Assembly (NCBI GenBank): GCA_020628815.1
Contig: JAHDEN010000042.1
Coordinates: 1-39,083, forward strand
Direction: 5' to 3'
Length of the DNA: 39,083 nt
Origin: Chloroflexota bacterium
Lineage (GTDB): Bacteria > Chloroflexota > Anaerolineae > Promineifilales > Promineifilaceae
The notes beneath the pieces were generated by a model. It was not told the origin of the DNA and ran no database searches. It saw only the letters and a program-made list of their open reading frames with translations. Positions 15,656 through 28,271 of the stretch are shown here, one piece after another. The first letter of the stretch is position 1. The number at the start of each line of letters is the position of its first letter. The translations under genes were made by a program, and so were the position numbers.

Positions 15656-16258
15656 TTACTCTTTTTCCTTTTCAAGTACCTGTTCTACAATGTTGCCTAG
15701 CACTTCGTGAGTCTGCGCCCCCGATACATAGTATTTATCCTGAAAAATCATGCCGGGAACCCCTTGAATGCCGTATTCGAACCCTTTGTCGATATCGGCC
15801 GTGACCTGACTGGTCCATGGTTCTGAGTCTAAAGCGTTCAAAAATTCTTCTTTGTCGAGTCCAATTTGACCCGCGATGTCGGCCAATACAACACGATCAT
15901 GGATGTCTTTGGTTTCAACCCAGTAGGCCGTCATTAGGGCTTTGTGATAGGCGGGTCCGGCACCATTGGCTTCAGCATATTTTGCCCCGACTAGGGCGGC
16001 CGTGCTGGTGCCTGAAAAGGTGTTGAAATTGATCTCAACCCCAAAGTCGCGTTCAGCGATTTCGGCCATGCGCGGCCGGGCGGCTAAAATTTTCGCCTGA
16101 TATTCTGGGGAGATGGGGCCAGCTCCGGGCGGCCGGAGCATATAGCTGTGCCATTCAATTTCTACATCATGTGATTCTTCGAGCTGCTCCAAACTGGAGG
16201 CCACGAGGTAGCACCACGGTCAAATATAGTCTGACCAAACGTCGATTTTTACAGTCAT
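15656..16258 (-). CDS. FrnE-like DsbA-family oxidoreductase with in-frame TGA (probable selenoprotein, U-P-W-C)
   Basis: The full reading frame is 200 residues if the TGA at 16220-16222 is read through. The N-terminus MTVKIDVWSDYI, then the TGA at codon 13, then PWCYL, exactly matches the start of the FrnE/2-hydroxychromene-isomerase branch of DsbA thioredoxins (KIDVWSD..CPWCY). The TGA therefore stands in place of the first catalytic Cys. Downstream homology is intact and in the same frame, including the Y-H-KALMTAYWVE-type helix and the cis-Pro loop GVPGMIF with the YYVSGAQ ending. There is no signal peptide, so it should act in the cytoplasm on thiols or disulfides. A 5-bp hairpin with a GTT loop begins 21 bases after the TGA. 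Without readthrough, translation would have to restart at GTG 16204 and lose the active site. Confidence 0.88.
16187..16199 (-). promoter_or_regulatory. SECIS-like hairpin after the in-frame TGA
   Basis: On the minus strand, CTCCA-GTT-TGGAG forms a 5-bp stem with a 3-base loop starting with G. The loop begins 26 bases after the TGA. Bacterial SECIS elements are small hairpins inside the reading frame, with the loop about 16-37 bases after UGA and a G near the loop start. The fit is by distance and shape only. Confidence 0.45.
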
Positions 16259-25417: not shown

Positions 25418-27193
25418 ATGAAAAGAAATAGTTTGATCGTTGTGTTAGTCGGTGCGATTGTTGCGTTGGGAGCTGCTACCGCTTGGCTAATGATAGGCCA
25501 GCGTGATCTAGAATCGCAACTAAATTTAAAAGAGACTGAGATTGCGGCCGGAGAATCGACGCTAGTCAGCGTATTTTCTGAACAGCGATCAGCCTCAGAG
25601 CAAGATGCCAATGCGCTCGCGACGGCCGAATCAGAGCTATTTGCTTTACGCTTGTACGCAACCGATGTTGCGCCAGCTCTGCAAACCCAAGAGCCGACCG
25701 ATCCTGTTACCCCCACTCCGCTTGCTGGCCTGCCCCAAGTGCGTATTCGGTTAGGAGAACCTGATCCAATCAAAACTGTTGGGCAACCGATCGAAATTAT
25801 CGCATCGGCCAGTCACCCGGTCGGTATTGCATCGCTTAACATTTTGATTAATGATGAGCTATTGCTGGCTCAGGATCCGTTTGACCCCCGCATGGATATC
25901 GCGGTTGCTGAATGGACTCCCATCGAAACGGGAACCTATGAGATCAAAGCGATTGCCGCAACGATACGCGGCCGGGCTAGTGATCCTGTCATCCTGCAAG
26001 TTGAAGTGATTGAGACCGATGATCCAGAGGTGTTGTTACAAACTCAGCTGCGTTTAATTGAAAAAAACGTACAAACTTTACGTGGTTTAGAGCAACAAGG
26101 GGAGCTAAATATCAACGTGATTGATCGCAACAACCTGCAAGAAAATATCGGAACCGATTTGCTGGGGGAATTTACCCGCGAAGATGCAGAGCTGGACGTT
26201 TTGGTACTTAGTTCTTTTGATTTTATGCCGCGCAACTATCCGCTTTATGATTCGTTGATCGAGCTTTATGGTTTTGTTGTGGCTGGATATTACGATGAGG
26301 AAACAGATTCTCTCTTTGTAATCAGCGATGACAATATGCTGGATGAGGAAGAAAAGTTAACCCATGCCCATGAATATATGCATGCGTTGCAAGATCAGTA
26401 TTTCACGCTGGCTAGCATCCAAAATGGATCATTAGACGCTGATGCCACAATGGCATTGCGCTCTCTTGCAGAAGGGGAGGCGTCTTTGTTGGAATTGGTT
26501 TACCGGAGACAGGGGTATTTAACCGGTGAGCAATCGGCCGACAGTAATCCGGTGTTCTCGTTACCCGAGGCGATTGCGGCCCCCAACTTTGTGGCGAGCC
26601 AGCTGGCTTTTCCATACATTCGCGGCCAAGAATTTTTGCTCCCATTTTTTGAAGAGGATGGTTTTGAAGGCATCAACCAAATTTGGCAGAATCCACCTCG
26701 TTCAACAGAGCAGATTTTGCACCGTGACCGATATTTGGCCGGTGATCAACCGCAGCTTGTAGAACTGCCATCTGACGAAATTTTGGCCGTTTTGGGCGCT
26801 GGCTGGGAGCAGGTGGCTGACGATGTGTTTGGGGAGTTTAATGTGATTGAGTATCTGAGCATTGCGTTGCCAGAAGATCAGGTTAATCCGGCCGCGTTGG
26901 GCTGGGGCGGGGACCGCTATGGTGTTTTCTATAATTCGGCTACGGATGAACGGTTGATGGTTTTAAAAATGGTTTGGGACACACCAACTGACCAATCAGA
27001 ATTTGCTATCGCCTATACCAGCTGGGCTGAATTAGTTTTAGTCCCTGCATCAAATAGCGGTATTGAAGATGGGGGGTGTTGGCAAAATGGGGCAGACACA
27101 CAGTGCCTAATTATTTTGGAAAATGAGATTTATATTACGCGTGCCGAATCAAAAGCGTTGAGCGATAAAATCCTTGAGATATTGATTCGCTAG
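25418..27193 (+). CDS. Membrane-anchored extracytoplasmic zincin-like protein (HEYMH)
   Basis: This 591-residue protein has an N-terminal membrane anchor (about 5-26) and a coiled coil (28-85), then a short Thr-Pro linker. A beta-sandwich, Ig-like domain follows at about 105-200 (VGQPIEIIASASHPVGIASLNI). Next is an alpha/beta region with the zinc motif HEYMH at about 318-322 and a candidate third ligand Glu in SLAEGEASLLE at about 352-354, the spacing expected for a gluzincin-type site. Its C-terminal part (470-591) ends in a compact domain with Cys pair GCWQNGADTQC. I do not recognise a named family. A role as an extracellular peptidase is inferred from the HExxH...E arrangement; the substrate is unknown. 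Confidence 0.75.
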   Translation: MKRNSLIVVLVGAIVALGAATAWLMIGQRDLESQLNLKETEIAAGESTLVSVFSEQRSASEQDANALATAESELFALRLYATDVAPALQTQEPTDPVTPTPLAGLPQVRIRLGEPDPIKTVGQPIEIIASASHPVGIASLNILINDELLLAQDPFDPRMDIAVAEWTPIETGTYEIKAIAATIRGRASDPVILQVEVIETDDPEVLLQTQLRLIEKNVQTLRGLEQQGELNINVIDRNNLQENIGTDLLGEFTREDAELDVLVLSSFDFMPRNYPLYDSLIELYGFVVAGYYDEETDSLFVISDDNMLDEEEKLTHAHEYMHALQDQYFTLASIQNGSLDADATMALRSLAEGEASLLELVYRRQGYLTGEQSADSNPVFSLPEAIAAPNFVASQLAFPYIRGQEFLLPFFEEDGFEGINQIWQNPPRSTEQILHRDRYLAGDQPQLVELPSDEILAVLGAGWEQVADDVFGEFNVIEYLSIALPEDQVNPAALGWGGDRYGVFYNSATDERLMVLKMVWDTPTDQSEFAIAYTSWAELVLVPASNSGIEDGGCWQNGADTQCLIILENEIYITRAESKALSDKILEILIR

Positions 27194-27392: not shown

Positions 27393-28271
27393 ATGACTAA
27401 AAAAGTAACCGCCATGCTCATCATGGCATTGGCTCTTTTTGCTGTTGTTGCTTGCACCCCTCAAACGGCCGACACCCCTGTAGAAGAGGTCGAGGTGAGT
27501 GAAGAGGTGCAGCAAACTGCAGTCGAAGAGGCCGCAACGGCCGTGCCTGTTGCCGAAGAACCGGCAACGCCAACATCTATACCGGTTGCGACACAGGTTC
27601 CTGAGCCTACTGATGCACCTGAAGAGATTGCAGAAACTGAACCGGAAGCAGAAGCTGAGGCAGATGAAGCTGTAGAAGAGGTTGACGATGATGGGCCAGA
27701 TGATGCCGCTATGGCTGAGTCAGCTCCGGTTCAATTCGGCCGCACCGAGGACGGAGCCTTTTATTATGGCTCACCTACGGCCGAAATTGTTCTGATCGAT
27801 CATTCAGACTTTTTGTGACCGAATTGCCGCTCCCACGTGCAGGGAGTAGAGAAAGAACTTTGGGCCGAATATGTAGAAACCGGTCAAGTTCAGTATATTT
27901 TTTGGCCAGTGATTAATCACGGTCAAGGCAGCTTTAACGCAACATTGGTAATGGAATGTGCCGGACAACAAGATCCCGCATTAGCTTGGAAAGCACACGA
28001 TATTCTGTTCGAAAACTTGTCAGCCTTATACAGCGGCACGCTTGATTTATATTTGAGCATCGCTGAGCAAACTGGACTTGATTTAGACGAATTTCAAACT
28101 TGCTTTGGCAGCGAAGAAGCGATTAATCGTATTCAAGAGTTAGACCAAATCCGACGCGATAAGGGGATTACGGGTCAACCAATCTTTGAATTTGTAGGGA
28201 TAGGCTATTTGATCGGGTCACAGCCGAAAGCGGTTTTTGACGACGCGATTGAAACCGTTATCAATCAATAA
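27393..28271 (+). CDS. DsbA-like thioredoxin lipoprotein with in-frame TGA (probable selenoprotein, U-P-N-C)
   Basis: Read through the TGA at 27816-27818, this gene encodes 292 residues. It has a lipoprotein signal ending VVAC (Cys21) and a Glu/Pro/Thr-rich linker (22-110). A DsbA-like thioredoxin domain starts IVLIDHSDFL, the TGA is codon 142, and PNCRSHVQGVEKELW follows. Related proteins read DFxCPxCRxHV here, so the TGA sits exactly at the first catalytic Cys. Downstream features are continuous in the same frame: GQVQYIFWPVINHGQGS, an AGQQDPALAWKAHDILF helix, and the cis-Pro loop ITGQPIFEFVG with LIGSQP. It should act outside the membrane on disulfides. The ATG has GAGG 8 bases upstream. 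A 5-6 bp hairpin starts 11-12 bases after the TGA. A strong terminator follows the gene. Confidence 0.9.
27829..27847 (+). promoter_or_regulatory. SECIS-like hairpin after the in-frame TGA
   Basis: CTCCC (27830-27834) pairs with GGGAG (27842-27846) around the 7-base loop ACGTGCA; a G-T pair (27829-27847) extends the stem. The loop begins 17 bases after the TGA, inside the window seen for bacterial SECIS elements. SelB binding is inferred, not shown. Confidence 0.5.

Follow-up and report, generated by a model that had tools for sequence, protein, structure and literature searches.

A TGA-interrupted Chloroflexota gene predicted to encode a DsbA-like selenolipoprotein of a clade without cysteine members

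The window analysed here is a stretch of 39,083 nucleotides from a Chloroflexota bacterium of the Promineifilaceae (contig JAHDEN010000042.1 of assembly GCA_020628815.1). It contains a gene at 27393-28271 that very probably encodes a lipoprotein in which an in-frame UGA is decoded as selenocysteine (Sec, U). The product would have a UPNC active site within a predicted DsbA-type fold and would act in extracytoplasmic thiol-disulfide exchange. By its profile match, the gene belongs to an already described, predicted selenoprotein family and is not a novel kind of selenoprotein. New here are a Sec-only clade with Arg or Gln before the cis-Pro, a second TGA-containing gene in the window (UPWC) and two further TGA-bearing DsbA-like proteins in the genome, one of which is fused to a cyclophilin. 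The raw sequence supports a selenoenzyme that routine gene prediction breaks into two pieces; standard open reading frame calling gives 27393-27818 and 27837-28271.

The frame is interrupted solely by the TGA and terminates in TAA (Table 1). If the TGA is counted as a residue, the gene encodes a protein of 292 amino acids with the TGA as residue 142. The protein starts with a lipobox (VVAC, with Cys21), which is followed by an acidic, Pro-containing linker, the stretch IVLIDHSDFL-U142-PNC145-RSHVQG and the remaining domain including Pro263. The thioredoxin-type domain begins at about residue 112, and U142 occupies position one of the CxxC site. The Pfam domain Thioredoxin_4 (PF13462) matches residues 122-259 with an E-value of 3.5e-18, and this match spans the TGA; the Pfam domain DSBA also matches the 292-residue protein (E 2.7e-6). 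Thus, frame and Pfam match bear out the sequence-only reading, according to which signal peptide, linker, TGA and DsbA-like domain lie in a single frame. That reading had also assigned the TGA to the position of the nucleophilic Cys, and the Cys homologs indeed align with a Cys there. A lipobox was recognised by pattern in the frames of 27 of the 30 clade members inspected; the remaining three are two frames cut by contig ends and one with a borderline LMAC.

The family is NCBIfam NF041057, the Rcas_1661 family of thioredoxin-like (seleno)lipoproteins. Its model matches residues 11-288 with 228.2 bits (E 1.1e-67), and the domain alone scores 210.6 bits, which is also above the curated cut-off of 190 bits. 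The gene shares with the family the nearly full-length match, the UxxC motif with the in-frame TGA at the nucleophile and, by pattern, the lipoprotein signal; no feature of the gene sets it outside the family. In a 2026 review, NF041057 is entered as 'DsbG-like protein' with the motif UxxC under 'Predicted with high confidence' and not under 'Experimentally verified' (PMC13188914). A DsbG-like UxxC selenoprotein (COG1651) with few members appears in two earlier reports (PMC1088965; PMC2398784), and the name DsbG-like is carried by a table in a third (PMC1794560). A search of a protein collection returned three matches only, perhaps since TGA-containing proteins are stored in truncated form, and no conclusion was drawn from it. 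Likewise unused was a scan of named genomes with a query carrying Cys at the Sec position, by which only Cys forms could be found; it yielded 12 loci, 11 of them at 26-30% identity and one over 14 residues.

The TGA is conserved far beyond this genome. Among 298 genomes of the class, the read-through protein was matched in 270, and the first 32 matches listed all contain exactly one TGA. With the NF041057 model, at least 43 of the matches listed lie individually above the cut-off: 35 genes from 34 genomes, the source genome included, contain one TGA and eight contain no stop. Eight candidates were scored per genome, so further members may exist, and a tally of 48 genomes above the cut-off also counts frames that pass only when several domains are summed. 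In all 35 TGA genes, this one included, the TGA lies on the same nucleophile codon. The four other genomes of the genus all encode the protein with one TGA (85, 72, 47 and 46% identity). A sequencing error is very unlikely because the TGA occupies the same codon in 35 genes and is shared at that position by the two closest orthologs of the genus (85 and 72% identical). The TGA could also be a true stop in a decayed or split gene, leaving a lipoprotein of 141 residues and a dead remainder, as the two pieces from standard gene calling would have it. We regard this as highly improbable, since 35 genes of 11 families share the TGA at this codon, a covarying hairpin follows it (see below) and, in comparison with the ortholog from genome G298, the part downstream of the TGA shows a synonymous divergence (dS) of 1.28 and a ratio of nonsynonymous to synonymous divergence (dN/dS) of 0.034. 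One Sec-type member falls below the cut-off with 185.9 bits (L155, G248:C540:1-1500); it has the motif SDFL-U-YTC (FLU), Gln-Pro and a hairpin with six of seven pairs, and it is absent from the tree described below.

A tRNA able to decode UGA, without which the sequence-only reading could not hold, is present in the source assembly (G000; 6.5 Mb in 332 contigs, 77% complete), where a tRNA-Sec with the anticodon TCA scores 70.9 bits. The assembly also contains a whole selD gene, which itself has an in-frame TGA (SSAGUAAK), selA in two pieces that each abut the end of a contig (covering profile positions 1-227 and 210-454), and part of selB (positions 11-324), which lies close to one end of a contig of 4.6 kb. 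Moreover, all 34 genomes with TGA-form family genes have a tRNA-Sec (E at most 1.8e-11), while among the 298 class genomes 73, counted by eye, lack a match better than 1e-10 (Fisher p 6e-5). The frame by itself would look alike if UGA were read through in some other way, by a near-cognate tRNA such as that for Trp or by general UGA recoding. Such read-through has little to recommend it and is hardly to be expected here, because UGA still serves as a stop (a terminal TGA in one of 29 window genes and in 10 of 30 clade members) and because tRNA-Sec, selA, selD and a covarying hairpin of the selenocysteine insertion sequence (SECIS) type are present. Furthermore, four other TGA proteins inspected in the genome (SelD, a FrnE-like protein and the loci L146 and L147) carry the TGA at the expected Sec/Cys position.

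The hairpin starts 10 bases past the TGA, with loop CGU. The 36 bases starting at the TGA align without gaps in 30 members, and RNAalifold, unprompted, returned a 7-bp stem (positions 14-20/26-32) with the loop CGUG(U/C/A). In this structure 92.9% of the cells are paired, compared with 34-53% in slid versions, and cells changed on both sides number 53 compared with 18.1 in shuffles. The covariation score is 0.734 compared with 0.252, and six of the seven pairs show compensatory changes. The five clade members outside the 30-row alignment form 6, 7, 7, 7 and 7 of the seven pairs, one of them with the loop CGUUG. In 27 Cys domains, the corresponding bases form 1-4 pairs (mean 2.4), and in nine domains without the Cys they form 1-5. 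In the window, the hairpin at 27829-27847 has a 6-bp stem, a 7-nt loop, a spacing of 16 and an energy of -8.6 kcal/mol. Published criteria for bacterial SECIS elements are a stem of 4-16, a loop of 3-9, a spacing of 16-37, an energy of -7.5 or lower and a G in the first two loop positions (PMC13188914); stem, loop size, spacing and energy of the window hairpin lie within these limits. A scan of the window against Rfam at the gathering threshold gave no match. The hairpin is identical in the G298 ortholog despite heavily changed synonymous sites, and also in the G299 ortholog, in which these sites are too changed for an estimate of dS. Of the membrane-anchored selenoenzyme proposed from the sequence, the selenium part is thus supported by the tRNA-Sec, selA, partial selB, selD and the covarying hairpin, and the anchoring stands as a prediction from the lipobox pattern. 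Sequencing error, a pseudogene and general UGA recoding were rejected on the conservation of the TGA, dN/dS, the hairpin, the terminal TGA stops and the sel genes.

However, several observations weigh against decoding of this UGA as Sec. The assembly is 77% complete; it has part of selB, close to a contig end, and selA in two pieces. As tRNA-Sec is widespread among genomes of the class, its co-occurrence with the TGA form is modest evidence that is supporting and not decisive. When single stretches of 50-91 bases that surround the TGA were folded, their energies were not significant (z -0.15 to -0.86); the signal came from the comparative test. An A-A mismatch at the top of the window hairpin leads to a minimum-energy loop of seven bases with the G in third place instead of the first two; the rule is satisfied where the pair 20/26 forms, in 27 of 28 distinct rows, and the window is the exception. 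The weakest clade member, L039, forms four of the seven pairs. Finally, 14 TGA-bearing domains outside the clade have the hairpin out of register (1-4 of seven pairs; one of seven in L156), and these relatives may use another SECIS geometry. Because the TGA-bearing locus L154, also outside the clade, has the hairpin in register with six of seven pairs, the hairpin is not confined to the Sec clade, nor is it simply tied to the TGA outside it.

A tree was built from 87 domain rows after masking of the nucleophile. In it, a branch with 100/100 support separates 37 rows, representing the 35 genes, from all others. The tree label FLU denotes a TGA together with a profile score above 195 bits, and hence the Cys side served as a check on the clade. 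No Cys member lies inside the clade, and all eight loci above the cut-off that lack a stop lie outside it, although Cys paralogs adjoin the gene in some genomes. Outside the clade are mostly multi-domain relatives in which TGA and Cys alternate. In alignment A3 (27 rows; L028, L031 and L032 were omitted as near copies of L027), Cys145 and Pro263 are invariant; Pro263 is called cis-Pro by position and not by geometry. Every clade member counted retains Cys189 and Cys237, as do the relatives wherever these positions align. Arg or Gln precedes the cis-Pro in each clade member counted (27/27 in A3 and 25/25 in a second, overlapping set), in contrast to Thr in 22 of the 25 aligned Cys domains (27 in all) and in 10 of the 14 TGA domains outside the clade. 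A single event may account for the association of Sec with Arg/Gln, since all these genes belong to one clade. A Sec-only clade with an Arg/Gln-Pro signature makes it possible to ask, in testable form, why an extracytoplasmic disulfide site retains selenium.

The following mechanism can be proposed. SelB and the Sec-tRNA would bind the hairpin, and Sec would be inserted at the UGA. The sequence suggests that the product would be exported, lipidated at Cys21 and tethered to the membrane by the long flexible linker. Judging from the family, the Sec142 selenolate would attack a substrate disulfide and Cys145 would resolve the mixed selenenylsulfide. A membrane partner would then restore the enzyme, and a DsbD/CcdA-type reductase is a likelier candidate than VKOR because each of the five genomes of the genus has a DsbD_TM match and one has a VKOR match. 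From these sequence comparisons, we weakly prefer a role as reductase or isomerase, which seems slightly the better supported, over one as oxidase.

An oxidase of the BdbD/DsbA type is a serious competitor, to which we give somewhat less than even chances. The closest solved folds include Bacillus subtilis BdbD (3eu3/3eu4), which is 20% identical to the gene product and has Cys in place of the Sec, and Corynebacterium diphtheriae DsbA/TsdA (4pwo, 7unn). The predicted protein also has oxidase-type features, namely a thioredoxin fold with a helical insert, a CxxC-type site and a Pro at the cis-Pro position, and VKOR lies above the cut-off in 10 of the 20 genomes searched, the source genome included in the search. 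On the other hand, such an oxidase would be expected to have a quinone-linked membrane partner (VKOR or DsbB), and the source assembly and three of the other four genomes of the genus gave no VKOR match, a weak point given that the source genome is incomplete and that DsbB was not searched for. The printed alignment also sets the Corynebacterium enzyme apart: it has CPFC instead of UPNC, Thr instead of Gln/Arg before the cis-Pro and no counterpart of the second Cys pair. Thioredoxin-fold proteins with a Sec are able to turn over peroxide, and a position at the cell surface would suit a peroxidase or electrophile scavenger. That this would be the main function is improbable, because the family matches solely thiol-disulfide enzymes and because the conserved resolving Cys and cis-Pro fit the thiol-disulfide exchange proposed here.

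Table 1 Features of the selenolipoprotein gene and the second TGA-containing gene in the window
Feature	Position	Strand	Basis
Sec-lipoprotein gene, NF041057 family, TGA read through, 292 aa	27393..28271	+	frame, Pfam, NCBIfam
Predicted signal peptide of a lipoprotein, with lipobox VVAC; predicted lipidation site Cys21 (codon 27453-27455)	27393..27455	+	sequence pattern
Linker, acidic, Pro/Thr-rich	27456..27725	+	sequence
TGA, residue 142, predicted Sec codon, UPNC nucleophile	27816..27818	+	TGA in all 35 clade genes
Cys145, predicted resolving residue of UxxC	27825..27827	+	invariant, alignment A3, 27 rows
Predicted bacterial SECIS hairpin, CGUGC at 27836-27840	27829..27847	+	folding, covariation, orthologs
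Cys189, invariant, predicted partner in second disulfide	27957..27959	+	alignments
Cys237, invariant, predicted partner in second disulfide	28101..28103	+	alignments
Gln262-Pro263, predicted cis-Pro loop; Arg/Gln ahead of the Pro is characteristic of the Sec clade	28176..28181	+	alignments
Second TGA gene, FrnE/DsbA-like, WSDYI-U-PWCYL, TGA at 16220-16222; no signal peptide by eye	15656..16258	-	sequence, DSBA domain E 4.7e-34

The genome encodes further TGA-bearing DsbA-like proteins. The product of the second window gene (UPWC) is probably cytoplasmic because no signal peptide was seen. Its 13 best matches in 40 genomes, the source genome included, all have one TGA; one of them is a piece of 42 residues and one also contains a TAG. 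FrnE is taken by us to be equivalent to COG2761. The UPWC gene resembles DsbA-like selenoprotein form 1 (PF01323, UxxC), a family separate from that of the NF041057 lipoproteins and given as COG2761 in the literature (PMC1088965). In some relatives of the UPWC gene, a candidate hairpin resembling CUCCA-GUU-UGGAG follows the TGA. L146 (G000:C299:4800-6500) is DsbA-like, shows a single apparent transmembrane segment and has a TGA in GDFG-U-PAC. L147 (G000:C63:6800-8800) is a lipoprotein with a TGA-bearing, DsbA-like UPGC domain followed by a cyclophilin domain (PF00160, 1.9e-44). TGA-bearing matches to L147 occur in G298:C1046 and G299:C231 (460 and 466 amino acids), the likeness being one of frame length only, and a limited literature search found no comparable DsbA-like/cyclophilin fusion.

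Taken further, the genus might run a selenium-based disulfide system at its surface, a speculative proposal that we put forward tentatively. At least three anchored TGA-bearing proteins with DsbA folds, namely the UPNC lipoprotein, the UPAC protein with its one transmembrane segment and the UPGC lipoprotein-cyclophilin fusion, would jointly act on extracytoplasmic proteins. The UPNC clade would be obligately Sec-dependent, with the Arg/Gln before the cis-Pro tuned to the selenolate and with the SECIS hairpin having shaped the codons that follow the active site.

Among the NF041057-like loci outside the clade, L086-L097, L154 and L156 have one or two domains in which the nucleophile codon is TGA, and in several of them another domain has lost the CxxC motif (Ser, Asn). 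Within the clade, L058 (G204:C91) comprises two Sec-clade genes that share a contig and are separated by about 7 kb, the second with the loop CGUUG instead of CGUG. The gene neighbourhood, compared across 20 loci and the window, revealed no general partner. In the window, the gene is preceded by a 591-residue protein (25418-27193, forward strand) with the stretch HAHEYMHALQ and no Pfam match at E 0.001. The upstream gene in three loci encodes what we take, from the look of its sequence, to be a UbiE/MenG-like methyltransferase. A two-domain Cys paralog adjoins the gene in five of the 20 loci; in L064, L065, L066, L069 and L070 such a paralog (CPFC/CPYC) lies immediately upstream of the Sec lipoprotein.
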